A stretch of DNA of 49,962 nucleotides from Bacteroidota bacterium (GTDB taxonomy: Bacteria > Bacteroidota > Ignavibacteria > SZUA-365): the NCBI GenBank assembly GCA_014860565.1, contig JACZJN010000219.1, positions 1 to 49,962 of the forward strand, read 5' to 3'. This document shows positions 7,664 through 23,434 of the stretch, one piece after another; position 1 is the first letter of the stretch; each line of letters opens with the position of its first letter. A program made the translations under genes and the position numbers. The notes under the pieces were generated by a model. That model was not told the origin of the DNA and ran no database searches. It was given only the letters and a program-made list of their open reading frames with translations.

Positions 7664-10285
7664 CTATTGCATCAGCACCATCGAACCGAACGCTTCGTAC
7701 TCCCCGACGCGGAGGACGTAGAAATAGACACCTGGTGCGTTGCCCGCGGATGTCCATTGCACGGTGTGAACGCCGGGGTGCTGCATCTCGTCGACCAGGG
7801 TCGCGGCAACCTGCCCGAGGGAGTTGAGCACGGTGAGGCGCACGGGAGCGAATGTCCCCAGGTCGTAGCGGATGGTAGTGGATGGATGGAACGGATTCGG
7901 ATAATTCTGGTACAGCGTGAACGCGCCCGGAGAGACCTGCACCGAGCGGACCGCGGCTACCTCACTGCCCATACCCTGGACCACCATGGTGTCGGGCGAT
8001 GTCGCCGCGTTGCTGGTCAGGATAAAGAACGTGTTTATCGAACCTACGGCGGTCGGCGTGAAGCGAAGAGTGAACGTCCTGGATCCGCCGGTTTCGATGG
8101 ATTCGATCGGTGTCTCCAATGTGAAGTGTGGATCACCCGATGTGAACGAAGCGATTCGCAGGGAGTCATTGCCCGTGTTCGTGACGGTCAGCGTCGTATC
8201 CTTGCTGAAGCCGATATTGACGTCACCGAAGTAAATGTACGTAGGGTCGATCGTCAGCGTCACCACGGGGGCGGTGGTGCCCGTTCCCAGGAGCGACAGA
8301 ACAGTCGGCGAGGTCGACGCATCGCTCTCCAATGTAAGCTCACCTGATACGGGTCCGGCAGCGGCGGGAGAGAAACGCACCGTGTCGTCGAAGGCATCGC
8401 CGGGGGCGACCTCCCTCGTGTCGATGGCGACAGTGAATACCGGGTTGTTCGTGCTGATGTTCGAGATGCGGAGTGTATCATTCCCCGGATTCGAGATATG
8501 CAGCACCAGTGATTTCTGCGAGCCGATCGCCACGCTTCCGAAATTCAGGGAACGTTTGTCGACTTCGATTTCCGGTTCCGCGAGTCCCGTACCCGAGACG
8601 ACAACCGTGTCGGGCCCGAAAATGGAATTACTCTGAACGACGATGTACGCGTTGGATATTCCCTTCCGGGTCGGCTGAAATTTCACCGTGGCCGTGACAT
8701 TGGCGCGCGGATCGATGGTGTTGCCGGCGGGCGTCAGACTGAATTGCGGATCGCTGGCGGTAGCGGACGCGATCGTCACCGCGACGCCGCCGTTGTTGGT
8801 GAGCGTAATGTCTTTCGTCGTGGAGTAGCCGACGCTCGCGTTGCCCAGGGCGACGGTCTTTGTAGAGAAGGTCAGGATAGGCGGTCCGATCGGGAAGGTG
8901 CCGTCGGCAAGAATTCTGGTGGCGTAGATTTCCGGATTCGAGAACGAGAGCCGGTAATCTTCCCAGACGGCGATGGCACCGTTCAGGCCGTCGCTGAGCA
9001 TGCAGGGAAACTGCTGCATCCCTCCCGCCGTGCAGAGCGCGACACCAGCTCCGGACCAGAGCAAAGAACCGCTGGCTGAAATCCGCTGTGCGTACATATC
9101 GCTTTCGGCAACGCCCCCGGTCATGTCTTCCCAGCAGACGATCACACCACCGTTGCCGTCGGGGACGATGTACGGTGTGGCCTGGTTGCCGGTGCGGTTC
9201 GAAACCTCAACGCCGTCGGCTGCCCAAGACTTCTTTCCTGTATTGTCGATGATCTGCGCGTACGACCGTGTTTTACCGGACAACCGCCCGTCTTCCCAGA
9301 CGATTCCGAGCAATCCCGCACCGATATTCGACAGCTGGGGGTTCGCCTGTCCGCCCGATGTCGACGTCGCACGCATCGAAGCGGCGGTCGTACCGTCGCT
9401 GTTCAGGACGGCGATCTGCAGCGTGGGTCTCGACCCGGAGCTCCAATCATAGTAGGCGAGGAACGCCTTGCCGGTACCGTCAGCAACGAGCGATGGCGTA
9501 TCCTGCGCGCCGCTGCTCGACGAGATCGTCACGCCGCCGTTCTGCCATTGCGGTACGCCGCTGGAATAAACCCGCTGTGCGACCACATCATAGTCCTGGT
9601 TATTATAGAATACCCACGCGATATACGCACCTCCGCTGCCATCACTTGCGATGCGCGGACTGGTCTCGAACTGGTCGGAAGTACTCAATTGAAGTTCCTG
9701 TCCCCATTGTCGGACGCCGTTCCCATCGATTCGTTGAGCGAAGATGTGGCCGTCCTGGTTCGTGCCGTTATGGGCACTCCATGTTACGATGGCGCCGTGA
9801 TTGCCGTCACTGACGAGCTTCGGGTCGGCCTGGTCGCTGCTGCCTGAGGCAACAGACACTCCGTCCGCCGCCCAGAGCACATTTCCCAAGGAATCCACGC
9901 GCTGGGCGTAGATATCAGTGTCGACGTTTCTCGCGTCCGTCCAGACAACGATCGCGCCTCCCGCACCGTCCGCAACGATTTCCGGTTTCATTTGTGCGTT
10001 GAATGCGGGGCTGATTGCGATCCCGTTTACCGTCCAGCGCGCGAACCCATCCTTGTCAATGCGCTGGACATAGATCTTGTAGAAATGCTGTGCTTCCCGT
10101 TCATCAGCCCAGCAGACGATAACCCCTCCCTTGCCGTCACTGGCGAGCTGGGGGGCCTTCTGATTGTTCCCTGCCCGGCAAACAGGAGTATTCGACGCGG
10201 GATCGGAACTCCATTGCGCCTGCGAAACCATGAAGGGAGCGAGAAAAAGGATCGTTGCGATAAGACGCGTCCGCGGTGTGATCAT
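7664..10285 (-). CDS. Large secreted repeat protein with HYDIN-like Ig domains and T9SS sorting domain
   Basis: An 873-residue exported protein. After a signal peptide (about residues 1-24, ending SQAQ) come eight repeats of about 52 residues, each with a core like DGxGGAIVxWxDxR followed by DIYAQR and a W/G-rich turn. This periodicity suggests a beta-propeller. Then follow three domains of about 100 residues of the ASPM/SPD-2/Hydin Ig-like kind (GSVAIGSQKSLVLHISNPGN is typical). The C-terminus (LYQNYPNPFHPSTTIRYDLG ... GVYFYVLRVG) is a T9SS sorting domain. No catalytic motif is visible; a role in surface binding or adhesion is a guess. The ATG at 10285 has a TGGAG ribosome-binding site; a TTG at 10309 is in frame but less likely. 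Confidence 0.87.
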   Translation of the reverse strand: MITPRTRLIATILFLAPFMVSQAQWSSDPASNTPVCRAGNNQKAPQLASDGKGGVIVCWADEREAQHFYKIYVQRIDKDGFARWTVNGIAISPAFNAQMKPEIVADGAGGAIVVWTDARNVDTDIYAQRVDSLGNVLWAADGVSVASGSSDQADPKLVSDGNHGAIVTWSAHNGTNQDGHIFAQRIDGNGVRQWGQELQLSTSDQFETSPRIASDGSGGAYIAWVFYNNQDYDVVAQRVYSSGVPQWQNGGVTISSSSGAQDTPSLVADGTGKAFLAYYDWSSGSRPTLQIAVLNSDGTTAASMRATSTSGGQANPQLSNIGAGLLGIVWEDGRLSGKTRSYAQIIDNTGKKSWAADGVEVSNRTGNQATPYIVPDGNGGVIVCWEDMTGGVAESDMYAQRISASGSLLWSGAGVALCTAGGMQQFPCMLSDGLNGAIAVWEDYRLSFSNPEIYATRILADGTFPIGPPILTFSTKTVALGNASVGYSTTKDITLTNNGGVAVTIASATASDPQFSLTPAGNTIDPRANVTATVKFQPTRKGISNAYIVVQSNSIFGPDTVVVSGTGLAEPEIEVDKRSLNFGSVAIGSQKSLVLHISNPGNDTLRISNISTNNPVFTVAIDTREVAPGDAFDDTVRFSPAAAGPVSGELTLESDASTSPTVLSLLGTGTTAPVVTLTIDPTYIYFGDVNIGFSKDTTLTVTNTGNDSLRIASFTSGDPHFTLETPIESIETGGSRTFTLRFTPTAVGSINTFFILTSNAATSPDTMVVQGMGSEVAAVRSVQVSPGAFTLYQNYPNPFHPSTTIRYDLGTFAPVRLTVLNSLGQVAATLVDEMQHPGVHTVQWTSAGNAPGVYFYVLRVGEYEAFGSMVLMQ

Positions 10286-10506
10286 GGGTGCTCCAGAATG
10301 TTGTATCAATGAACCTACGCATCCGATTTGCCATAATCAAGCATCAGCACCGACGGTGAATATAAATCCACGGAGCAGAGACGGGACGATTCGAATCTGT
10401 GCATGGATTCTCTCGGTACTGTGAAGCTGAAACCATATCCCCGAATCACTATGTGTTGTTGCTGGCAGATTGGCTCGAGTGAACGAGGATGTTCAGGGAG
10501 AACAAC

Positions 10507-12255
10507 TCATGCCTCAATGATGCCGTATATGGCAAAATCGTTCCCTTTCTCTATGGCCCAGCTGGCATTGCCATAATCAAAATGCCAGTATTCCTTGATA
10601 TCCACCGCGAAGTCTTCCTCTTCAAAAAGACTGATGAGCAATTTCCGATTGCCTTTCGCTTCGGGTGTGATATAAGGATGATGCGGATAACATTTGTCAT
10701 TGAGGTTGATTTTGAATCCGTCATTCGTTCCGAAACGCATGACGCAATCCTCCTTCAAATCATAGATCAGAGCATCCACGGCCCCGCCGGTTGAATGCAT
10801 GGATTGACTTGGCGGGGCAATAAAATATGAAACGAGTTCCTCAATTTCTTCCGGCTGTTTTTTTGGGTATTCTGTCTTCAAAGAGCTGACCCTTTCCTCC
10901 CACAGAAGTTTCTGATGTCCAAAAGAGCGCCAGACAGATCGTATTATTAGTGTTTTGTCTTCGTCATCCAAACGTCTGCTGATACGGCCGATTTTATCGA
11001 AAACAGCTTCCCGGACCATATATTTATAATCCGTGATGATGGATTGCTCGAAGATCAAATTAAAACCGGATTCATTCAGGCTGATCAGAGGAGAATGGTC
11101 TTCTTTAATATCAATTGCAGGCAGACGCTGCATATGTCTGCGATATTTTTGCTCGACCATCTCACAATATTCCTGGGCATTCACTCGGTCACTGGAGATT
11201 TTGTTTACATAAAGAGAAGTCATGGCTGAAAGTAGAGCTCCGTAGTTCACATCAAACTCTACTTCGTTTCCTACGCGTACGTCGGCATTCTTTGCATCAA
11301 CGATGACGTGGTCACTGCTGGCTCCAATGATTTCAATAACCAATCGGGGAGTCAGCCCCGAAACCAGGACATCCTGCAACCCGACACCCAGAATGGCTCT
11401 TCGTATTTGGCCCCTGTCTTCAAACTCCGGGATTTTCCCAAATGCATCCTGACAAACTTCGCCATAGGGCATGGATGGCTTGATTTTCGATTCAATAACC
11501 TCCGCAACGAGCGTCATCGCATCGGTGAACAACCCAGGGATGGCATTCCTGTAGAGGGTCTCACGCCCCAGGTAGATGGCCTCACCCAGCCGCAGGTTGT
11601 TGATTCTTCCGACATCCTTCGTGGACATAAACCAGTTGTAGTTCGCGGAGTTACCTCCGGAAATGAACTTCAATGTCAGCCCGAATGTGTCTTCTACATC
11701 GTTGGCGATGGAGGATAAAAATCCCATTTTGTCCTCATCAGGTTTTATCCCGCCAAAACAGGCCAGATTTGTCCCAATACCGATAAGCTCGATGGATTCG
11801 AGCTCCAGGACGCGTCTGATGGTTTCATCCAGATCCGAGGGCATCAGGCCTTCTCGTAAATCTCCCAGTTCGACCATTAAAACGACTTGATGAGGATGAT
11901 CGCAATCCACAGCATAGGTTGAGAGTCTTTCGATGACGGAGAGTTCGGTGTTAAGACTTATATCCGTGTATTTCACAACGGCTTCGGCCTGACTCAGATG
12001 AGGCGTACGCAGCAAGAGGAATTTGGCTTGCACGCCGGCGTTTCGCATCCTTCTGATATTCTCTATTCTTGAATCCGCAAGGATGTGAATCCCGCTTTTC
12101 ACCAGAGCTTTCGCAATGGAAGGATCACCGCAGACCGCTTTTGTCACGCCGATAACATCAATGCCCTTTGAGCCATACAGCTCCCGTAACGCTCTCGCAT
12201 TATGTGAGATTTTTTCAAGGTTTATCTCTATTCTTGGTGTCAGCATGCTATGCAT
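10507..12255 (-). CDS. Fusion of ornithine/alanine-type PLP racemase and VanX-type D,D-dipeptidase
   Basis: A 582-residue cytoplasmic protein with two enzymes in one chain. Residues 1-375 match the fold type III alanine/ornithine racemase family: the pyridoxal-phosphate lysine is K39 in VIGVTKAVCGDP, followed by HILADSRIENIRR, ELGDLREGLMP and ISGGNSANYN. Residues about 385-582 are a peptidase M15D (VanX, D-Ala-D-Ala dipeptidase) domain. Its zinc motif SxHxxGxAxD is S485-M-H487 ... D494, and the ExWH motif is E555-Y-W-H558. The 61-residue distance from D494 to H558 equals that between the VanX ligands D123 and H184. I infer that the fusion cleaves a D,D-dipeptide and racemises a released D-amino acid; the actual substrate is unknown. 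The start lies inside the DUF1611 gene (16-base overlap) after an AAGGA site. Confidence 0.88.
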   Translation of the reverse strand: MHSMLTPRIEINLEKISHNARALRELYGSKGIDVIGVTKAVCGDPSIAKALVKSGIHILADSRIENIRRMRNAGVQAKFLLLRTPHLSQAEAVVKYTDISLNTELSVIERLSTYAVDCDHPHQVVLMVELGDLREGLMPSDLDETIRRVLELESIELIGIGTNLACFGGIKPDEDKMGFLSSIANDVEDTFGLTLKFISGGNSANYNWFMSTKDVGRINNLRLGEAIYLGRETLYRNAIPGLFTDAMTLVAEVIESKIKPSMPYGEVCQDAFGKIPEFEDRGQIRRAILGVGLQDVLVSGLTPRLVIEIIGASSDHVIVDAKNADVRVGNEVEFDVNYGALLSAMTSLYVNKISSDRVNAQEYCEMVEQKYRRHMQRLPAIDIKEDHSPLISLNESGFNLIFEQSIITDYKYMVREAVFDKIGRISRRLDDEDKTLIIRSVWRSFGHQKLLWEERVSSLKTEYPKKQPEEIEELVSYFIAPPSQSMHSTGGAVDALIYDLKEDCVMRFGTNDGFKINLNDKCYPHHPYITPEAKGNRKLLISLFEEEDFAVDIKEYWHFDYGNASWAIEKGNDFAIYGIIEA

Positions 12256-13322
12256 GCTTTTTCCTTCAGTTCCGGGAAAAATGCAGTTAATGTATCGACG
12301 AGTTTATCACATCCGAACTTCAGGACATCTGTGGTTGGTAGTTCATACCTGGCTTCATAGTCAGCGATCGTGGTTTTTATGTCGGCATCCGTCATGTCTT
12401 CGTGGTTAATTGTGATCGCAATGACCTTCGATTGAGAGAATGCAGCTATCAGTTCGATTTCACTTTCAAGTGAAGGCATGGCAATACCGGGATAATCGCA
12501 ATGGTCCTTTCTTTTGGGGGCGTGCTGAAGAATGATTGCATCTGGCATTGCTCCTCTTACAATGGCGCTTGAAGAGGTGTACGCAGGATGACTCAGAGCG
12601 CCTTGCCCTTCAACAACAATGATATCAGGATGCTCTTTTTCATAGGCATTAATAACCGCGTTTTCAACTTCTCCAGTCGCAAACCCTGAAGATAGGACAT
12701 CGACGGCGATGCCATACTTTGCTCCCTGAAGCAGTCCCGTTTGCCCCGTGGCTATAAATGCCGGGTTCAATCCCGCCTGTTTCAATGCCTCAACGAGACG
12801 TACCGCGGTTGTTCTTTTTCCGACGGCACAATCCGTACCGAGTACTGCTATGACCGGAGATGCGACTTCGTGAATACGTCCCGAAAAATTATGCAGATAC
12901 TTTCTTGCAGGTGCTTTTCGCATATCATAGATATGAACCCTGTATTCGATCGCCTTGCGGATGAATTCTTCATCCTCGGTGAAAAATTCCGGTAATCCGT
13001 TTACGAAGTTCATGCCCGCTTTCATGGCCCCCAGTATCACCTCTCTCTGCCCCTGGTCAAGATAGGCTTCTTGTGCCGCGATCCCATATATGAAATATTC
13101 CGGTACGAGGCCCAATAGTCCAATGGCATTCTCCATGCTCGGGAATATCGGGATCCCGCTCTGTTTTCCATCAAGATATTCTCCCGTATCGAGGCCCGCC
13201 TTTGTGCTGTCTATTATACCGAGGATGTCGTACTTTTCAGAGTGCCGCGCAAGTCCATTGGCCACTTTCCCGTCTATCTTTCCAAATTCATTTTCACAAT
13301 ATACTATTGCTCGAGCTGCCAT
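12240..13322 (-). CDS. DUF1611 P-loop protein (DgcN-like), partner of the racemase-VanX fusion
   Basis: A 360-residue protein with the DUF1611 layout: an N-terminal Rossmann-like domain (residues 1-150) and a C-terminal P-loop domain with the Walker A-like LGTDCAVGKRTTA (161-173), then ATGQTGLLQGAKYG and VEGQGALSHPAY. One family member, DgcN, has been reported as a D-glutamate N-acetyltransferase that works with an N-acetyl-D-Glu racemase; others are uncharacterised. Here the overlapping downstream gene is another racemase fused to a D,D-dipeptidase, which supports a role in D-amino-acid handling, though the reaction cannot be read from the sequence. The ribosome-binding site is weak (GGGA). 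This gene and the next are visibly richer in A+T than their neighbours. Confidence 0.85.
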   Translation of the reverse strand: MAARAIVYCENEFGKIDGKVANGLARHSEKYDILGIIDSTKAGLDTGEYLDGKQSGIPIFPSMENAIGLLGLVPEYFIYGIAAQEAYLDQGQREVILGAMKAGMNFVNGLPEFFTEDEEFIRKAIEYRVHIYDMRKAPARKYLHNFSGRIHEVASPVIAVLGTDCAVGKRTTAVRLVEALKQAGLNPAFIATGQTGLLQGAKYGIAVDVLSSGFATGEVENAVINAYEKEHPDIIVVEGQGALSHPAYTSSSAIVRGAMPDAIILQHAPKRKDHCDYPGIAMPSLESEIELIAAFSQSKVIAITINHEDMTDADIKTTIADYEARYELPTTDVLKFGCDKLVDTLTAFFPELKEKACIAC

Positions 13323-13646: not shown

Positions 13647-14441
13647 TCAATCGCAGGCAGGCAGAGACGGGTCAGTCCCACTTCCTGTGAGCGTAACGCT
13701 GGTCACGCAGCCCCCGAGTGACAGCTGGACGTCCTCTTCGATGGCGCGTGAGAATTCGGCTCCGGGGGAGTACACGATCACCTCATAAACGCTGGATTCC
13801 TCGCTCTCTGAAATCTGACGGATCTGTGGCTCTCGCTGAGGGAAAGACCACACAGAATTGAGGATGGCTGCGCGCAGCTTCCTGATGTCGCTGCCTGGTT
13901 TCGCAGGACGTGCCAGACGTACCTCAAAGCGGTGGTGGTTCGCAGAATCCTCCGGAGGGCTCATCCCGTGTATGCGTCCCACAAGCCTGGAATAAGGAAT
14001 CAGCAGCTCCTCGCCGTTTTCGCGTTCAATTTTTATCGACAGGTAATTGAGGTTTCGGATTTTTCCCCGTATATCGCCTGCGATAATTTCCCGGCCGATT
14101 TCGTACGCGTTCTGCGCCTTGAGAACGATGCCGGAAATCCAGTCCCGCACAACGTACCACGAGATCAGCAGAACGAGCACCGTCGAAACGGCGGCAAGCA
14201 CGAGATGGTAATACAGGGGATCATCCAGCAACAACCGGGTGCTTCTGATGAAATACACGAGCCAGATGACGGCTTCAATCGAGGGACCGGCGCGCCGTAG
14301 AATCCTGCTATACCTGCTGTTTGCGAAGACCGCCGACCAGACATAGCGTGCGGCTGCCATCCCGAGGAACAGCAGGACTCCGATGAGGAGCACAAGAATC
14401 AGCGTGTATTCCGATAGTTGAAGACCTGACCACTCGTTCAT
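13647..14441 (-). CDS. MscS-type mechanosensitive channel
   Basis: A 264-residue inner-membrane protein. Three hydrophobic helices lie at about residues 12-33, 55-75 and 78-103. They are followed by the MscS beta domain, with AYEIGREIIAGDIRGKI and IKIERENGEELLIPYSRLVG around residues 111-155. A short cytosolic domain (about 165-250) ends the protein. Channels of this family open under membrane tension and release solutes on hypo-osmotic shock. Its ATG overlaps the TGA of the SLC12-ATPase gene (ATGA), so both are made together. That pairing suggests linked volume or ion control. Confidence 0.88.
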   Translation of the reverse strand: MNEWSGLQLSEYTLILVLLIGVLLFLGMAAARYVWSAVFANSRYSRILRRAGPSIEAVIWLVYFIRSTRLLLDDPLYYHLVLAAVSTVLVLLISWYVVRDWISGIVLKAQNAYEIGREIIAGDIRGKIRNLNYLSIKIERENGEELLIPYSRLVGRIHGMSPPEDSANHHRFEVRLARPAKPGSDIRKLRAAILNSVWSFPQREPQIRQISESEESSVYEVIVYSPGAEFSRAIEEDVQLSLGGCVTSVTLTGSGTDPSLPACD

Positions 14442-17400
14442 AACATCTTTGCCTCGACAAGTTGCTGTATGATGAACGGCCGTACAAAGGGATTAATTCG
14501 CTGGGCGCCAGATGGCGTCTTGACGATGAGCCCTGCCCGTTTCAGTTCGTTCGTCCTGGCTTCGACATGGGTGATGTCCCTGTGGAACAGCCGCGCAAGT
14601 CGTTCGGTCGTGAGCATCTTATGGAGTACGAATTGCAGAAGCCAGATCTGCCATTCGTTCTCGAGTTGGCCCAGGATGGCCGTAGACGATCGCCGCGGAG
14701 CACGGATAACGAGTGATTCGGATTCCACCGACTGAATGTTACTAATCCATGCATTGAGCGCATTCCCGATGTTGCCGGCGGAATAATCGAAGTACCGTGT
14801 AAACAGTTTCGCCTGCTGGTATCCCGAAAAGTGTTCCTCCGCATGTCCGTTCAGTGTAAAAGTCAGTCCAGTGGTCCTGTGGCGCAGCAGAATGGCCTCC
14901 TGTAGTTCCTTTGCGTCGAACGGCTCACACATGATGATGCCCATGAACGTCTTGTCGATGGCACGAAGGCGGTTGATAAAGCGAAAACTGTGCGTGCTGG
15001 CGTTGACGATGAACATGCATCGGTCGCTGTATTTGTCAATGAGCCGGACAATCTCATCGATCACCGCAAGGCCACCCTGACTGCGCTCCCACCAGAGTTC
15101 GAGATCGTGCAGCACGACGACACTTCCTGAGGGAATGGTGAGGAACAGTTGGTCGAAATCCCCCTGCGATCGCAAGGCGTCGGCCAGGAGCATCCTGAAA
15201 CGATCCCTGTCGATGCAACCGACCTCAGGTGGGAACAGGTGGAACGTATTGAGCTCGTCGAAGTGCCCCCTGACAATGCTCCTGCACAGTGTGGTTTTCC
15301 CCGCATCGGGTTCTCCGAGGACGAGCAATCCACCGCGATATCCTTGCCGGAAAAGGCGGATGACGGAGTCCGCTTTTTCCATTTCAACATTCTGACCAAC
15401 CAGCAGATCGCTGCCGATGGGCTGCTTCCCGGTGAAAATCTGCCGGTAGTAAAACGGCAGGCCTCGCAGAACTTCCGCCCGGGGGGACACCCGGTCGGTG
15501 AACGTGAGCAGCGCGTCGGCGGAGGCGGTCTCGAGTACCGAGGCACCGCGAAGTCTGCGTGCCAGCAGCACGCCTTCGCTGCGCCTGTACAGCAGGTTGA
15601 CGATGGAGTTGTTTACGAAGGTCATGATATTGCGGCTTTCCTTCATGATAGCTTCAATCAGCCGGTTGCTCGTGTTGGATCGTATGCCGTGCGATACGCT
15701 GTCCGCAGCCCTCGAGATCAGATATGGATTCAGCTTCGTTGCCGCACCGCGCATGTACACCTGCACAGCGTTGCGCAGGTCGTTCATGATCTGCTCCGCA
15801 CGCAGACGCTCCTTCGACAGCCGCCGGATTCCACTCCGCACTGTATCCGAGAAGGAATGCCGGAGATCCTCATCTCCGAGAACTTCGGAGGGATCGGCGC
15901 TTTCCCGGCTGAATTGGACCAGGCGCAGCACTTCAATCGTGGCGTTGCGGGCAATCGTTGACTGTTTGTGCAGTTCGAGCAGTTTGCTGCGGAGGGGGTC
16001 GACCAGTTCCTGTTCGATGATATAATTAACCAGGCGACGGAGGTTGATGGATGTGGTGCCCATACCCTGGTACTGTATGGTGTCAATATTCCGGAAGGAA
16101 TCCTCATCGATGATGACGACAATCTCGGGCAGTTCTTCCAGCGCTTCCTGTATGAGCGTATCCGTCGACCTGATTATTGCCTGCGGGTCCATGCCGTCCT
16201 GCTGTCGGAGCACATGCTGGAAGCTGTTGGCGAGGTCGCCGTCCAGGCTGTCGTCGAGGGATTGCAGCTTCGCGTCAAGTTCGTCGAGAGGTGAGAGCAC
16301 CAGTCTGTTGATGTCATCCCGCACCTGGGCCATGAGTTTCTTCGTGCTTTCATGCGCGCGAGAAAGAAAGACCATCAGGTGAATTTCCATGCTGGCGTAA
16401 TGCAGCATCAGTGTGATGTTATGCTGCCAGGAGACAGGCATACCCAGAATTGTACTTTTCAGTTCCAGAGCGCTCTTGGGAGTCTTGCACTCCTTCCTGA
16501 TAATGCGATTGATATCGAGGTAGAGAGCGTCGTCGTACAGATCTTTCATCATCTTCCGGTTGCCGGCGAGCAGGCGCACGGAATTGCCTTGTACACGGTC
16601 GCGTTGCATCCGGGTGATGTCGTTGAGCCGGGATTCGAGACGCCCTTGTTCCTCCCGGATCAGACTTTCTGTTATCGTTCCTGACTCCAGTTCGTTTCCC
16701 AGCACGGCCAGCCTGTCACGAACTTCGTTCAGCCATTTCTGCAGCTCGGAAATCAACTGGTAGCTGTGAATGCCGAACGCCTCGGCATGTACAAATACGA
16801 GATGACGCAGCCGTACCTGCATGTCATACGACAGACGCCTGCGCAGCTGGAGCCGTATGGTGGGCAGCGTTTTCCGCAGGTGCCAGTTGATGCGCTTGCG
16901 CCACTTGAACCAGAGAATGCGGGCGTCATCTCTTCGCTCCGGCTTCAGTACCGACACGTCATGAAAGACGGTAATGGTTTCTGGAATAGAGGCCTCCAGC
17001 GTGTCCAGTTGGGAGAGAAGCTGTTCCAGTCCGAGTTCGAATTCTGTTTTCTGCGCCGGGACCTGTTCCTGCTCGAAGGTCGCGAACTGTCGTTGAAAGC
17101 TGTCGAGAATATCTGCCTGCACACGGGAAAACAGCGTCTGGTATGCCGGATCAGAATCGCCGGGAAGTCGGCGATGCAGCACCGAAAAACCGCGATCAAC
17201 AAGGTCGTGCAGTTCAGAGATAAAACCTTGGTTGATCCCGCTGATGCGTTCCATGGAGCTGACTGCGTAGTCACCCAGTACTCCTTCTGTTTCCCCGGTG
17301 ATCCTGGTCAACTCATGTGCCAGCCGCTCGTGAACATTTTCTTCCGAGGTCGCGGACAGGACCAGATCGGGCAATTGTTCCTCGATCACTGTTTCGACCT

Positions 17401-19594
17401 CCGACGTGGACGTCGGCACATCCTCTTGCAACCCGGAATAGAGCGGATCAAACATCGAGGATGCCTGCACGAGCAGGGTGGACCCCAGGTTTGCGAGGAT
17501 GGTGTTGATTTTCGAGACGAAGTCCGGGAGCGTGTGTTCATCAAACACCGGGAGGCCGATCATGATCAGGTCGGCCTCGCTGGATTCAGCCTGAACCACG
17601 TCAGTGAAGGGGAGTTTCTCGATCGAGTTGTTAATGACCTTGACGGTAGCCACAATACGCTGTTCGTCGAGCACCTGCCGGATATTCTTATGCACGCGAT
17701 GCACCATCTCTCTGTCATCCACCAGTGTCAGGATGCGTGCTTCAGCGTGTTGCCACTCTGCCGACATGGTGAGGAATTTCAGTATCGTCAGCTCGAGAGT
17801 CGTATTGTTGTTGCCGCCCCTCCACCAGATATCGATTCGTGCCTGTTCCCCGAAGCCGCGTTCGGCGTCGTAGTCAAGTAATAGAATATTGTAATCCAGC
17901 TCCGAAAGGTGACGAACCAGCTTCGTGAAGCGGAGGGGGTCGCGTGTGTTGCGCGCCCAGCCCATGAGCACGGTGTTCGGTTCAACGCCCGAGAAGCCAA
18001 ACACCTGGGAGATGACCTCCATCCCATCGTAGATGTCCCTGCATTCGAGCTGCCGACTGAATATGCCCTCCGCGGTTTCCGTGTTGTCGTGCAGCACCTG
18101 TTCGGATTTCTGAAATAGCACTCCCGCATCCGGCTGTTCTATCAGATCGAAATTGGACATGATGCCCCTGCGATCCACGATCCATTTCCCGAGCTCGATC
18201 AGGTGCGGCCGCTTGCTGACCCCGCCGCTGAACAGAATAATATTAGGACGCCAGTTGCGCGCGTGTCGAACACTCCGGTCGAGTCGGTGGAGGCCGGAGC
18301 GGATAACCGACGACCACACCCCTTCCCAGGTATCGCCGGACTCCAGTGTCAGTTCCTGCCGCTGCAAATAGATGTACAGGGCTCCGAGGATGAGGGTCGA
18401 TCCCACGAAGGAGATGAGGTCAAGCTCGATCATTACAATGAAGCTGGCCGTGGCACCCACCACACTCACCCATGTAGGGATGCGGAACGAAGGACGGAAG
18501 TCCGGACTGGCCCAGTTTTCCACCGCGCAGCTCAGATTGATGAAGCCGTATGTGGTGATGAAAAATATTGAGACGATGCCGGCAATCACATTCAGTTCGC
18601 CGATGAGGATACCTGCTTCCGCAATGATAAATGTGAGTAACAGAGCTGAGCGGGGTTCGTTGGACGGGCCATGTCCCGTCCTGAACACCTGCGGCGTGAT
18701 GCGGTCGAGGGACATGGCCTGCAGGATGCGCGGCGCTCCCAGCAGACTTCCCATGGCGGAGGAGAGTGTGGCCCCCCAGATACCAGCCACCAGGAATGAA
18801 GGGACGAGCGCGATTTCCATCAACACGTTGGGATTGCTGACCAGCTCCTGGGCGTTCACACGGAAGGAAATGAATACCGCTATCCCGACGTACACAATAA
18901 ATCCCACGCCGATGGCCGCCATGGTGCCGATCGGAATCGATTTCTTGGGATCCTTCAGGTCGCCTGACATCTGTACACCAGCCGTGAATCCGGTCACTGC
19001 CGGAAAGAAGATGCCGAACAGCACCATGAGGGATTCGCCTTGAGGCCAGGGAGTGAGCAGCGGCGCGGGAGGTGCCAGGTGTGTTTTGCCGAAAAATATC
19101 GCGATCAGAGATAATACGATAGCGCCAAGGATAAGGTATTGCGTCCTGATGGCAAGAGAGGTGCTGATGAGCACAACGGAGGACACAGCCACAAGTGCAA
19201 GTGTACCGTACAGCCGTATGTTATAGATAGTCGATGCAATACCCAGCACAGGGAGAAAGCTCTCGATGAATCCGATTATATAGAGGCTGACACTGAAGGA
19301 GAGTCCTACAAACAGGGCCAGGCCCAGTGTCCCGCCTATGGGAAGGCCAAGACTGCGTGAGATGATGTAGAACAGACCGCCGGCTTTCACGCGCTTGTCT
19401 GTCGCGATGGAGGCGACGCTGAGTCCTGTTGTGATGGAGATGATGTGGGCGACGAGAATAATACCTATCGTGGTCCACAGTCCTGCCTGACCGACGATCC
19501 AGGGCAGGCGCAAGTACATGATGACGCCGAGGATGGTTAGAACCGATGGGGTAAAGACTCCTCCAAAAGTTCCAAATGTTCTGCTTTTCGCCAT
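14438..19594 (-). CDS. SLC12-like cation-chloride cotransporter fused to an AAA+-like ATPase
   Basis: A 1718-residue protein, much longer than bacterial cation-chloride cotransporters. Residues 1-412 are the SLC12/APC permease with family hallmarks: GVIMYLRLPWIVGQAGL (23-39), GGLFYIISRSLG (72-83) and FFPAVTGFTAGVQMSGDLKD (196-215). Residues about 445-710 match the soluble tail of SLC12 proteins (starting NWRPNIILF). Residues 730-1395 form a long, mostly helical region that I do not recognise. Residues 1396-1600 are a P-loop ATPase with Walker A G1427-E-P-D-A-G-K1433-T and Walker B-like VVVLHDLE (D1497). A winged-helix-like tail (1640-1718) follows. The start has an AAGGA site eight bases upstream, and the MscS gene follows with a 4-base overlap. 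I infer an ATP-controlled ion transporter; the ATPase might instead be a signal or stress sensor. The frame is unbroken, so the fusion looks real. Confidence 0.85.
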   Translation of the reverse strand: MAKSRTFGTFGGVFTPSVLTILGVIMYLRLPWIVGQAGLWTTIGIILVAHIISITTGLSVASIATDKRVKAGGLFYIISRSLGLPIGGTLGLALFVGLSFSVSLYIIGFIESFLPVLGIASTIYNIRLYGTLALVAVSSVVLISTSLAIRTQYLILGAIVLSLIAIFFGKTHLAPPAPLLTPWPQGESLMVLFGIFFPAVTGFTAGVQMSGDLKDPKKSIPIGTMAAIGVGFIVYVGIAVFISFRVNAQELVSNPNVLMEIALVPSFLVAGIWGATLSSAMGSLLGAPRILQAMSLDRITPQVFRTGHGPSNEPRSALLLTFIIAEAGILIGELNVIAGIVSIFFITTYGFINLSCAVENWASPDFRPSFRIPTWVSVVGATASFIVMIELDLISFVGSTLILGALYIYLQRQELTLESGDTWEGVWSSVIRSGLHRLDRSVRHARNWRPNIILFSGGVSKRPHLIELGKWIVDRRGIMSNFDLIEQPDAGVLFQKSEQVLHDNTETAEGIFSRQLECRDIYDGMEVISQVFGFSGVEPNTVLMGWARNTRDPLRFTKLVRHLSELDYNILLLDYDAERGFGEQARIDIWWRGGNNNTTLELTILKFLTMSAEWQHAEARILTLVDDREMVHRVHKNIRQVLDEQRIVATVKVINNSIEKLPFTDVVQAESSEADLIMIGLPVFDEHTLPDFVSKINTILANLGSTLLVQASSMFDPLYSGLQEDVPTSTSEVETVIEEQLPDLVLSATSEENVHERLAHELTRITGETEGVLGDYAVSSMERISGINQGFISELHDLVDRGFSVLHRRLPGDSDPAYQTLFSRVQADILDSFQRQFATFEQEQVPAQKTEFELGLEQLLSQLDTLEASIPETITVFHDVSVLKPERRDDARILWFKWRKRINWHLRKTLPTIRLQLRRRLSYDMQVRLRHLVFVHAEAFGIHSYQLISELQKWLNEVRDRLAVLGNELESGTITESLIREEQGRLESRLNDITRMQRDRVQGNSVRLLAGNRKMMKDLYDDALYLDINRIIRKECKTPKSALELKSTILGMPVSWQHNITLMLHYASMEIHLMVFLSRAHESTKKLMAQVRDDINRLVLSPLDELDAKLQSLDDSLDGDLANSFQHVLRQQDGMDPQAIIRSTDTLIQEALEELPEIVVIIDEDSFRNIDTIQYQGMGTTSINLRRLVNYIIEQELVDPLRSKLLELHKQSTIARNATIEVLRLVQFSRESADPSEVLGDEDLRHSFSDTVRSGIRRLSKERLRAEQIMNDLRNAVQVYMRGAATKLNPYLISRAADSVSHGIRSNTSNRLIEAIMKESRNIMTFVNNSIVNLLYRRSEGVLLARRLRGASVLETASADALLTFTDRVSPRAEVLRGLPFYYRQIFTGKQPIGSDLLVGQNVEMEKADSVIRLFRQGYRGGLLVLGEPDAGKTTLCRSIVRGHFDELNTFHLFPPEVGCIDRDRFRMLLADALRSQGDFDQLFLTIPSGSVVVLHDLELWWERSQGGLAVIDEIVRLIDKYSDRCMFIVNASTHSFRFINRLRAIDKTFMGIIMCEPFDAKELQEAILLRHRTTGLTFTLNGHAEEHFSGYQQAKLFTRYFDYSAGNIGNALNAWISNIQSVESESLVIRAPRRSSTAILGQLENEWQIWLLQFVLHKMLTTERLARLFHRDITHVEARTNELKRAGLIVKTPSGAQRINPFVRPFIIQQLVEAKML

Positions 19595-20204: not shown

Positions 20205-22493
20205 ATGAACATGAACCAAAGCCCAGTCGCCTCCACTCTCGACCGTCTGGCCTTCATCGGCAACTACCTGCCGCGTCTCTGCGGTATCGCGACGTTTACC
20301 ACGGATCTCTGTGAAGCCGTCGCTTCCATTTATTCCGCGACAACGTGCATCGCCCTGCCGGTCAACGATATCGAAGCGGGCTACCCGTATCCCGCCCGCG
20401 TGCGCTTTGAACTTGCGGAAAAGAATATTGAATCGTATCGCCGCGCCGCGGATTTTCTGAATATCAACAATGTCGACCTCGTATCACTGCAGCACGAATA
20501 TGGCATTTTCGGCGGACGTGCCGGAAGCCATATCCTGACGCTTCTGCGCGAACTCCGGATGCCCGTCGTCACAACGCTGCACACCATTCTGCGCGATCCC
20601 GACACCGACCAGAAACGGGTACTGCAGGAAATCGCGGCTCTCTCCGACCGGCTCGTTGTCATGAGCACGCGTGGCGCTGAATTCCTTCGCGATATCTATG
20701 GAGTCTCGCCGAAGAAAATTGATTTGATTCCGCACGGCATTCCGGACGTCCCCTTCGTGGACCCGAGTTTCAACAAGGATCTGTTCGGCGTCGAAGGGAA
20801 AATTGTCCTGCTGAGTTTTGGGTTGCTGTCGGCCAGTAAAGGCATAGAGAATGTCATCTCTGCTCTTCCTGCTATTCTGGCTCGACATCCGAATGTGGTG
20901 TATATCGTCCTCGGCGCCACGCACCCGCATGTCGTGAAAAATGAAGGTGAAACGTACCGGATATCCCTCCAATGGCTTGCACAGGAGAAAGGGGTGGATG
21001 GGCAGGTGATTTTCTACAACCGTTTTGTCAGCCTGGAAGAACTCATCGAATTCATCGGTGTGGCGGACATTTACATCACGCCCTATCTCAACGAAGCGCA
21101 AATCACCTCGGGCACGCTTGCCTATACACTCGGAGCAGGGAAGGCGGTGGTTTCAACGCCCTACTGGTATGCGGAAGAGATGCTCGCCGAGGGACGTGGC
21201 GTGCTGGTGCCGTTTCAGGATCCGGCAGCGCTGGCTGAGCAGGTGAATCTCCTCCTTGATCAAGAGTCCCAGCGGCATGCGATGCGCAAGAAGGCGTATA
21301 TTTTCGGGCGAGAGATGATCTGGCCTCGGGTGGCGGGGCGTTATATGGAGAGTTTTCTCAATGCGCGGGCCGAACACCGGCATTTTGCCCATGCAGAGTT
21401 TGCGGTGAAGCCCCTGGACAAGCGCCCGGGAGAACTGCCGCCTCTTAAGCTGGACCACCTCAATACCATGACAGACGAAACCGGCATGCTGCAGCATGCC
21501 ATCTTCACCGTGCCCAACTATAACGAGGGTTATTGCATCGACGACAATGCCCGCGCGCTCATGGTAAGCGCTCTCCTCGAAGCCCTTGGAAACGAGCGCG
21601 CGCCTGAACTGGGTTCACGGTATCTCGCCTTTATCTGGTATGCCTTCAATACTGAAACCGGACGCTTCCGCAACTTCATGGATTACCAGCGCCGCTGGCT
21701 GGAAGCGAGTGGTTCCGACGACAGCCACGGCCGCACGCTCTGGGCGCTGGGCACGGTGTTGGGCAGCACCAACACATCGGCCATGCACAGTATGGCGGGG
21801 TGGGTATTCGAGCAGGCGCTGCCTGCCATTCTGGATACTACCAGCCCCCGCGCGTGGGCATTCGCCATCATGGGTATTCAGGAATACCTGCAGCGATTTG
21901 GTGGTGATCGCCGGGCCAGCCAGGTCCGCGAGGAATTATCGAAGCGCTTGCTGACGCTGTATCAGAACCAGCGTTCTGAAGAATGGCGTTGGTACGAGAA
22001 CCGCCTGACGTACTGCAATGCCGCGCTGCCGCATGCCCTGCTGCTTTGTGGAGAGGCGATGTCGAATGCCGCGATGACGGAAGCCGGATTGGAGTCCCTC
22101 ACCTGGTTGACTGAGCTGCAGCGTTCGGACGCAGGACATTTCGTTCCCATCGGATCCAATGGCTTCTATACGAAAGGGGGGAAACGGGCACGGTTTGATC
22201 AGCAGCCGGTGGAGGCGCAGGCCATGGTCTCCGCATGCCTCGAAGCATACCGGATCACGACCCAAAAGCAATGGCGCAAGGAAGCCCATCGTGCCTTTGA
22301 TTGGTTCCTGGGACGTAACGACCTGAATATGCCAATTTACGATCCGACCACAGGCGGCTGCCGCGACGGCCTGCACCCCGACCGTCCCAATGAAAATCAG
22401 GGCGCGGAGTCGACACTGGCGTTTCTCCAGGCCTTGCTGGAGTTGCGACTGGCCGAGATCACACCTCTCTCAATGGAAGATGCACAACAATGA
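20205..22493 (+). CDS. GT4 glycosyltransferase with C-terminal helical (toroid-like) domain
   Basis: A 762-residue protein. Residues about 15-385 are a GT-B fold, family 4 glycosyltransferase: the N-terminal GNYLPRLCGIATFTTDL, the linker VDLIPHGIPDVPF, and the donor-site region TPYLNEAQITSGTLAYTLGA around residues 290-309. Residues 410-755 are helical with repeated tryptophan- and glycine-rich turns (NYNEGYCIDDNARALM, then SHGRTLWALG), which suggests an alpha/alpha toroid as in glycoside hydrolases. The stop overlaps the GH130 start (ATGA). Together they look like a unit that builds or recycles a mannose-type glycoside, but the donor sugar cannot be read. The ATG at 20205 has GGAGAAG upstream at a rather long spacing; an ATG six bases later is possible. 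Confidence 0.85.
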   Translation: MNMNQSPVASTLDRLAFIGNYLPRLCGIATFTTDLCEAVASIYSATTCIALPVNDIEAGYPYPARVRFELAEKNIESYRRAADFLNINNVDLVSLQHEYGIFGGRAGSHILTLLRELRMPVVTTLHTILRDPDTDQKRVLQEIAALSDRLVVMSTRGAEFLRDIYGVSPKKIDLIPHGIPDVPFVDPSFNKDLFGVEGKIVLLSFGLLSASKGIENVISALPAILARHPNVVYIVLGATHPHVVKNEGETYRISLQWLAQEKGVDGQVIFYNRFVSLEELIEFIGVADIYITPYLNEAQITSGTLAYTLGAGKAVVSTPYWYAEEMLAEGRGVLVPFQDPAALAEQVNLLLDQESQRHAMRKKAYIFGREMIWPRVAGRYMESFLNARAEHRHFAHAEFAVKPLDKRPGELPPLKLDHLNTMTDETGMLQHAIFTVPNYNEGYCIDDNARALMVSALLEALGNERAPELGSRYLAFIWYAFNTETGRFRNFMDYQRRWLEASGSDDSHGRTLWALGTVLGSTNTSAMHSMAGWVFEQALPAILDTTSPRAWAFAIMGIQEYLQRFGGDRRASQVREELSKRLLTLYQNQRSEEWRWYENRLTYCNAALPHALLLCGEAMSNAAMTEAGLESLTWLTELQRSDAGHFVPIGSNGFYTKGGKRARFDQQPVEAQAMVSACLEAYRITTQKQWRKEAHRAFDWFLGRNDLNMPIYDPTTGGCRDGLHPDRPNENQGAESTLAFLQALLELRLAEITPLSMEDAQQ

Positions 22494-23434
22494 ATAATCA
22501 ACATCCGCAGCTATTTCTCCGACATCGACACAATCCCATCCTCACCAGCGCCGATTGGCCCTATCCGGTCCATAGCGTTTTTAATCCCGGTGCGACATTA
22601 CTACGCGACGGCACAACGCTCCTGTTATGCCGTGTCGAAGATCGCCGCGGACATTCCCATCTGACGGTGGCTCGATCCGCCAATGGAGTGGATGGTTGGA
22701 AAATCGATCCTCAACCCACGCTCCCCGCCGATCCTGAAAACTTTCCTGAAGAGCTCTGGGGAATCGAAGACCCCCGCATCACATATGTGCCCGAACTGAA
22801 AAAATATGCGGTCGTGTATACCGCATTCTCCAGCAGCGGTCCTGGTGTGGCGTTGGCGTTGACGGAGGATTTCCACGTCTTCGAACGCCTGGGAATGATC
22901 ATGCCCCCGGAGGATAAAGACGCGGCCTTATTCCCCCACAGGATTGGTGGTCATTGGGCGATGATCCATCGTCCAGTCAGCGCGACCGGTGCACATATGT
23001 GGATGTCGTATTCCCCCGACCTGCGGCACTGGGGAAGCCACAAGCTGATGCTGGCGGCCAGAAGGGGAGGTTGGTGGGATGCCAATAAAATCGGTCTGAC
23101 GGCACCGCCCATCGAAACTCCCGACGGTTGGCTGGTGATCTATCACGGCGTGCGGCAAACGGCCAGCGGTGCGATCTATCGACTCGGTCTTGCGCTGTTC
23201 GATCTCCAGACACCGGAGCTTTGCCTGCAGCGCAGCGACGAGTGGGTGTTCGGCCCGGAGGAACCCTATGAACAATTTGGCGATGTGGAAAACGTCGTCT
23301 TTCCATGCGGCTACACAATCGCTCCCGACGGCGATACAATAAACCTGTATTATGGTGCCGCGGATATGAGCATTGCCCTTGCCACCGGCAGTATCAAGGC
23401 TGTTCTCGAGTGGATGAAGGAGCATCAAGAGTAG
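22490..23434 (+). CDS. GH130 family glycosidase/phosphorylase
   Basis: A 314-residue enzyme of glycoside hydrolase family 130, five-bladed propeller proteins that phosphorolyse or hydrolyse beta-mannosides. Visible signatures are FNPGATLLRDGTTLLLCRVE (about residues 26-45), the catalytic-acid segment GIEDPRITY, KDAALFPHRIGG, WLVIYHGVR and a C-terminal ENVVFPCGYTI. It follows the glycosyltransferase with a 4-base overlap, so both probably act on the same glycan. The subfamily, and whether phosphate is used, cannot be decided from sequence alone. Confidence 0.9.
   Translation: MNNQHPQLFLRHRHNPILTSADWPYPVHSVFNPGATLLRDGTTLLLCRVEDRRGHSHLTVARSANGVDGWKIDPQPTLPADPENFPEELWGIEDPRITYVPELKKYAVVYTAFSSSGPGVALALTEDFHVFERLGMIMPPEDKDAALFPHRIGGHWAMIHRPVSATGAHMWMSYSPDLRHWGSHKLMLAARRGGWWDANKIGLTAPPIETPDGWLVIYHGVRQTASGAIYRLGLALFDLQTPELCLQRSDEWVFGPEEPYEQFGDVENVVFPCGYTIAPDGDTINLYYGAADMSIALATGSIKAVLEWMKEHQE

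Follow-up and report, generated by a model that had tools for sequence, protein, structure and literature searches.

A candidate two-component ion- and volume-homeostasis system in bacteria: an AAA+ module on SLC12 and CPA2 transporters and its MscS-derived partner

The closest described counterparts of the system discussed here are the SLC12 transporters (NKCC/NCC/KCC and the prokaryotic MaCCC), the MscS/MscK/YnaI channels, the ORC/Cdc6-TnsC-STAND branch of AAA+ ATPases and, as work-alikes, KtrAB/TrkHA and the KefC-type antiporters, in which a cytoplasmic nucleotide-binding module controls an ion transporter. Eukaryotic SLC12 members serve volume regulation, and the family is a drug target in humans. 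To our knowledge, the regulators of KtrAB/TrkHA and the KefC-type antiporters are RCK (Rossmann) domains, not AAA+ domains, and come without an MscS-type subunit. In Thermoproteus tenax, the tpsp-gt-msc operon combines genes for making osmolytes with one for a putative mechanosensitive channel (PMC3634074), but it has neither a transporter nor an AAA+ module. Here we analyze a locus on a 49,962-nucleotide stretch of DNA (hereinafter the window) from a bacterium of the Bacteroidota (Ignavibacteria, SZUA-365; contig JACZJN010000219.1 of assembly GCA_014860565.1), which is one complete contig of a 4.75-Mb draft genome. In it, a single gene codes for an SLC12 transporter, a long-helix region and an AAA+ ATPase that ends in a winged helix, and the next gene codes for an MscS-family protein.

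The transmembrane domain and cytoplasmic tail of this SLC12 transporter align to KCC/NKCC and retain the Na+-coordinating serines, but the window protein departs from the family in its extra ~1000 residues of helical, AAA+ and winged helix-turn-helix (wHTH) regions, in a Thr for the Asn of the first transmembrane helix (TM1), and in its dedicated MscS-type partner. That partner shares the beta and C-terminal domains of MscS/MscK/YnaI, and relatives paired with unfused modules even have the canonical pore helix; in contrast, the partners of SLC12 fusions lack this Gly/Ala helix, are reducible to a soluble piece and are phylogenetically tied to the AAA+ module. The ATPase has the AAA+ core and winged helix of the ORC/Cdc6-TnsC-STAND branch, which supplies its top Foldseek and VIA matches, but is tethered to the membrane via an ion transporter and accompanied by a 600-residue long-helix region. 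The link to the KtrAB/TrkHA and KefC-type systems is also one of gene content, since some of the module operons include TrkH/TrkA and CPA genes. Each of SLC12, CPA2, MscS and AAA+ is a known family, but the system that recurrently combines them appears to be new; full-text searches of open-licence papers found no description of SLC12 or CPA2 fused to an AAA+ ATPase, or of the module with MscS.

We posit, with a modest degree of confidence, that the window holds one version of a widespread, undescribed two-component ion-/volume-homeostasis system, in which an AAA+ module regulates a transporter with an MscS-derived subunit. Its core would consist of a ~950-residue cytoplasmic module (long-helix region, ORC/Cdc6-TnsC-type AAA+ ATPase and winged helix) and a dedicated MscS-derived membrane protein. 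The module would be placed by fusion on SLC12 in the window and, in relatives, by fusion on CPA2 or unfused, sometimes in an operon with an antiporter, CorA or an extra MscS. Anchored at the membrane via its transporter, it might serve as an ATP-dependent sensor or switch that docks on the MscS-type subunit, at the cytoplasmic domain that survives loss of the membrane part, and raises or lowers transport as cell volume, ionic strength or energy state changes. We give about even chances to the broader proposal of a new class of ion-homeostasis machine, with an AAA+/long-helix module on the unrelated secondary transporters SLC12 and CPA2 and its own MscS-derived subunit, such that one ATP-dependent sensor of volume or ionic strength controls both. 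If true, bacteria would possess a counterpart to the volume-regulated NKCC/KCC transporters of animals. As far as our searches reached, what is new is the placement of one ~950-residue AAA+ module on two ion-transporter superfamilies that are unrelated to each other, along with a dedicated MscS-derived partner that is kept even after the genes separate. With this system, experiments can ask how bacteria detect volume or ionic strength and relay the signal to transporters; it also offers a prokaryotic model for regulated SLC12 transport, and examples of MscS-family proteins that were retained despite lacking a normal pore, likely as regulatory subunits. Because named isolates carry it, experiments are feasible now.

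The fusion gene has an ATG start and codes for 1718 amino acids with zero internal stops. At its end, the junction AAG ATG TTA TGA places the ATG of the MscS gene inside an ATGA, a 4-bp overlap, and the same -4 overlap joins fusion and MscS genes in many relatives. The features are:

14438..19594, minus strand: fusion gene of SLC12 transporter, long-helix region, AAA+ ATPase and winged helix (1718 aa)
18350..19594, minus strand: SLC12 transmembrane domain, residues 1-~415 (PF00324, TIGR00930)
17450..18349, minus strand: SLC12 cytoplasmic tail, residues ~416-715 (PF03522; PDB KCC alignment)
15557..17338, minus strand: long-helix region, residues ~753-1346 (AlphaFold2 model, hhalign)
14675..15469, minus strand: AAA+ ATPase domain, residues ~1376-1640 (AlphaFold2 model, Foldseek/VIA, Walker A)
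15293..15316, minus strand: Walker A motif GEPDAGKT, residues 1427-1434 (sequence, conservation)
14441..14674, minus strand: C-terminal winged-helix-like tail, residues ~1641-1718 (AlphaFold2 secondary structure; ORC-type alignments)
14438..14441, minus strand: ATGA stop/start overlap of the fusion and MscS genes (sequence)
13647..14441, minus strand: dedicated MscS-family partner of the SLC12-type subfamily, 264 aa (PF00924; partner profile A7; tree)

The original prediction, made from the letters alone, had already read a single unbroken frame of 1718 residues and an MscS gene starting within its stop codon, and both readings hold from ATG to stop. So does its domain order of SLC12, helical region and AAA+ ATPase with winged helix, now backed by the Pfam, TIGR00930 and KCC/NKCC matches and the AlphaFold2 model.

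An orthologue from another species of the same genus is full length, 59% identical and linked to the same MscS gene by ATGA. Scanning the named genomes yielded 562 relatives among the candidates, and in the best 80 loci, which were examined, the domain order recurs as 67 complete SLC12 fusions, most with an adjoining MscS gene, which answers the search for further instances that the original prediction had proposed. The hosts span Bacteroidota, Chlorobiota, Ignavibacteriota, Calditrichota, Marinimicrobia, Gemmatimonadota, Myxococcota and SAR324, and include isolates such as Flexithrix dorotheae DSM 6795.

The module is not confined to SLC12. Genomes of family f13 encode ~1510-residue proteins in which the last ~950 residues are homologous to those of the window fusion (blastp E down to 1e-24 to 2e-25) and the N-terminus is a CPA2 antiporter (PF00999 E 3e-19; TIGR00932). 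Class- and phylum-wide searches recovered a third form, module proteins of ~800-1060 residues without a fused transporter. A tree of 122 ATPases requires only four architecture changes, one of them probably a truncation at a contig edge, so that each fusion arose rarely and was then inherited. In families f11 and f22, the operon of the CPA2 type additionally encodes TrkH (E 2e-55), TrkA and another CPA antiporter, and unfused forms can be accompanied by CorA (E 2e-68) and additional MscS genes. At two loci (L190:4288-8692 and L191:5690-10135), a split form lines up a ~800-residue helical-ATPase gene, a ~235-residue MscS-like gene and a separate ~430-residue gene that is antiporter-like by sequence appearance and position, no profile search having been made. 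The common theme of the fused and operon-linked transporters is inorganic ion balance, and the ion-homeostasis role suggested in the original prediction gains strength from the CPA2 version and the operons with TrkH/TrkA or CorA. At the CPA2-type f13 loci (L033-L036, L070), synteny extends to a glycyl-tRNA-synthetase-like gene and to genes for an fn3 and a TPR protein, an arrangement that suggests a stable, non-mobile chromosomal position. One genome of the class, G025, carries an intact CPA2-type copy in addition to its SLC12-type locus.

Across all forms, an MscS-family gene lies within 250 bp of 54 of the 57 module genes sampled; the other three are at a contig edge or have over-long predicted starts with an MscS gene close by. 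The 66 SLC12 fusions from named genomes with downstream sequence allow a finer count: 56 adjoin an MscS gene with membrane helices and three a gene for the MscS C-terminal domain alone, and a further fusion (L103, genome G694) also has an adjoining MscS gene. In five, the SLC12-type partner is unlinked, on another contig, and still present in the same number as the fusion (1:1, and 2:2 in G693); these unlinked partners score 198-237 bits, and no other MscS protein of their genomes exceeds 56. The sole fusion with an SLC12-type partner neither adjacent nor elsewhere in its genome is L122. Thus, the pairing recurs and survives separation of the genes. Of the 391 genomes of the class, exactly eight have an SLC12-type partner at >=150 bits (G000, G003, G025, G069, G085, G164, G258 and G341), and these are the ones that hold a fusion of this type, the pseudogene-like remains of one (G025) or a module fragment at a contig edge, with its N-terminus beyond the contig (G341); the next-best matches, at 71-83 bits, are at CPA2-type loci. 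The adjacency, the unlinked partners and this co-occurrence together bear out the conserved functional tie to an MscS-family gene that had been proposed. The remains in G025 are at:

L037:8000-11645 (G025:C2): broken SLC12-type fusion gene directly before an intact MscS partner

As for the nature of the partner, the window protein matches MS_channel_2nd (PF00924) at E 8.5e-8 (32.6 bits against a cut-off of 20.2), contains the MscS beta domain and scores 289 bits against partner profile A7, of which the window sequence is itself a part. Nine other MscS proteins fall on a separate branch of their own in the partner tree. The Gly/Ala-rich pore helix of MscS (TM3) is present in unfused-type partners and absent in SLC12-type partners, which have the common motif W..(R/K)D..AG in its place, and the CPA2-type partner matches MscK/MscS/YnaI structures. 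Three SLC12-fusion relatives (Fulvivirga and one Flammeovirgaceae genome) adjoin, by a 4-bp ATGA overlap, a 111-residue open reading frame for the MscS C-terminal domain only, with no membrane helix:

L113:15073-15408, L134:8630-8965 and L169:15061-15396: 111-aa MscS-derived soluble frames, matching the C-terminal part of the partner profile

Since SLC12-type partners have lost the pore helix or the whole membrane part, the cytoplasmic domain is the part retained and likely the docking site of the module. Five further MscS proteins in the window genome score better against PF00924 than the partner, so that the standard emergency valve is probably not its role. For the partner in the SLC12 version, a regulatory or modified-channel subunit seems a likelier reading than a standard tension valve.

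The SLC12 part combines a 12-TM AA_permease fold with the SLC12 C-terminal domain (profiles; PDB KCC/NKCC matches at E<=1e-50). In Pfam it matches AA_permease (PF00324, residues 13-411, E 4e-39) and, above the cut-off, SLC12 (PF03522, residues 462-549); TIGR00930 gives 387 bits across residues 3-670, below that family's own cut-off of 953 bits. KCC/NKCC structures match with E down to 3e-81, the KCC chains aligning until residue ~655. Among 68 SLC12 fusions, the TM8 serines S278/S279, which align to Gly-Ala of KCC, are present in all, Y105 and Y349 are invariant and T201 is kept in 66; at the K+ site, Tyr105 of TM3 is retained and the TM1 Asn is Thr20 in 68/68. In Na+-transporting SLC12 members, a TM8 Ser-Ser pair coordinates Na+ (PMC7200160). 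The invariance of this pair suggests a Na+-coupled, probably inward cotransporter, with K+ use uncertain, and, together with a Walker A motif kept in 67/68 fusions, makes ATP-gated ion uptake plausible. That bacterial SLC12 proteins normally lack an ATPase, as the original prediction held, is supported by 395 genomes of the phylum: 84 have SLC12 (E<=1e-40), only four frames are fused, and the homologues are mostly 715-860 residues long, with no helical-AAA+-wHTH extension.

The P-loop ATPase with winged-helix tail predicted at residues 1396-1718 is weak in Pfam, where the C-terminal AAA_22 match stays below the cut-off, and clear in the AlphaFold2 model of residues 715-1718 (predicted local distance difference test (pLDDT) 86.8), which has an AAA+ domain and a wHTH tail. 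Foldseek places ORC/Cdc6, RuvB and TnsC on top (E 5e-8 and weaker), and VIA (Z about 14-15) has NSF among its top rows beside ORC/TnsC; the ORC-type alignments reach the C-terminus of the fusion, taking in the winged-helix tail. The candidate Walker B or catalytic acids are D1497 (59/68 SLC12 fusions) and E1499 (62/68), their exact assignment being uncertain. Nucleotide-dependent switching is likely for the fused form. Transporter-less module proteins are at loci L088-L098 and L180-L199; those that were examined (L088-L098) mostly have no Walker A lysine (GEKGSGTSS and similar), and thus look like pseudo-ATPases; they are still paired with a canonical-pore MscS.

The region between the SLC12 tail and the ATPase (residues 730-1395 in the original prediction, which called it helical and of unknown nature) proved helical in its AlphaFold2 model (pLDDT 89.8, predicted template modelling score 0.83) and without a known family or fold: the profile searches found no Pfam or NCBIfam family and no PADLOC match to it, PDB sequence matches are confined to the SLC12 part of the fusion, and Foldseek against PDB and BFVD gave nothing at E<=0.001. 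It consists of two related halves (hhalign internal repeat, probability 94, E 1e-7) with a small beta hairpin in each, and is homologous across the SLC12-fused, CPA2-fused and transporter-less forms over 500-550 columns (hhalign probability 99.0-99.6, E 5e-18 to 2e-24). In the model, it looks like a lever or scaffold. Dynamin-like VIA matches (Z 10.1 for 5owv, 9.7 for 5oxf and 7.5 for 2j69, over model residues 1-280) are within helical-bundle noise, and the fusion protein has no GTPase domain; we do not claim a bacterial dynamin-like stalk.

Several points weigh against the proposed two-component system. In G025, the intact MscS partner sits beside an SLC12-type fusion broken by stops and frame changes, which may reflect decay or assembly error. 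Most of the unfused module proteins examined are missing the Walker A lysine, so that ATP hydrolysis is not required family-wide. Partner and ATPase distances correlate (Mantel r 0.81 overall, 0.72-0.91 within forms), but the correlation is inflated by shared ancestry, the unlinked-partner and presence/absence tests being the stronger evidence; and gene pairing alone is not proof of a physical complex. The combination offered by the original prediction, with the SLC12 part as ATP-gated uptake and the MscS partner as a normal tension-gated valve that jointly sense and correct volume, one filling and the other emptying the cell, is consistent with the conserved pairing, the canonical pore helix of unfused-version partners and the structural matches of the CPA2-type partner. 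However, SLC12-type partners share W..(R/K)D..AG and no pore helix, the soluble C-terminal piece stands alone in three relatives, and the window genome has its five better-scoring MscS proteins. With the pore helix lost and some relatives retaining the soluble domain only, tension-gated release is doubtful in the window, and we hold this explanation to be unlikely.

Alternatively, instead of gating transport, the module could be an assembly or remodeling factor for the transporter or the MscS-type oligomer, responsible for its building, insertion or extraction. The AAA+ fold, the VIA rows with NSF besides ORC/TnsC, and the occurrence of the module with MscS but no fused transporter would agree with this, but a remodeler is not usually joined covalently to two transporters of unrelated families, the lysine is mostly lost in unfused members and no substrate-unfolding elements were identified in the module, making it improbable. 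An anti-phage or suicide system, in which a STAND-like ATPase senses infection and opens the MscS pore, might be read from the AAA_16/nSTAND-like profile matches and from Apaf-1 and NRC4 among the Foldseek matches. We consider it very improbable: six proteins searched against PADLOC for a known defense system gave a best E of 0.025, which is not convincing, the fusions are to housekeeping-type transporters, the operons hold TrkH/TrkA/CorA, and the module is single copy in the window genome, with each architecture mostly stably inherited. With the window being a single contig from a draft assembly, one might suspect that two genes were merged by an assembly error or frameshift and that the MscS gene is adjacent by chance; the intact orthologue from the same genus (G003) and the 67 complete fusions, isolates included, rule out misassembly, frameshift and chance adjacency for practical purposes.

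The window also holds genes of other kinds. A 582-residue protein (10507-12255, minus strand) combines an alanine-racemase N-terminal domain (PF01168) with a D-Ala-D-Ala peptidase domain (M15/VanY), and its gene overlaps a DUF1611 gene (12240-13322). At 20205-23434 (plus strand), a 762-residue glycosyltransferase-family-1 protein is followed, with a 4-bp overlap, by a gene for a GH130 mannooligosaccharide phosphorylase. An 881-residue protein (7664-10309, minus strand) contains Ig domains of the HYDIN/ASH/Cep192-like kind (Pfam E 1e-37), whose families are known above all from cilia.

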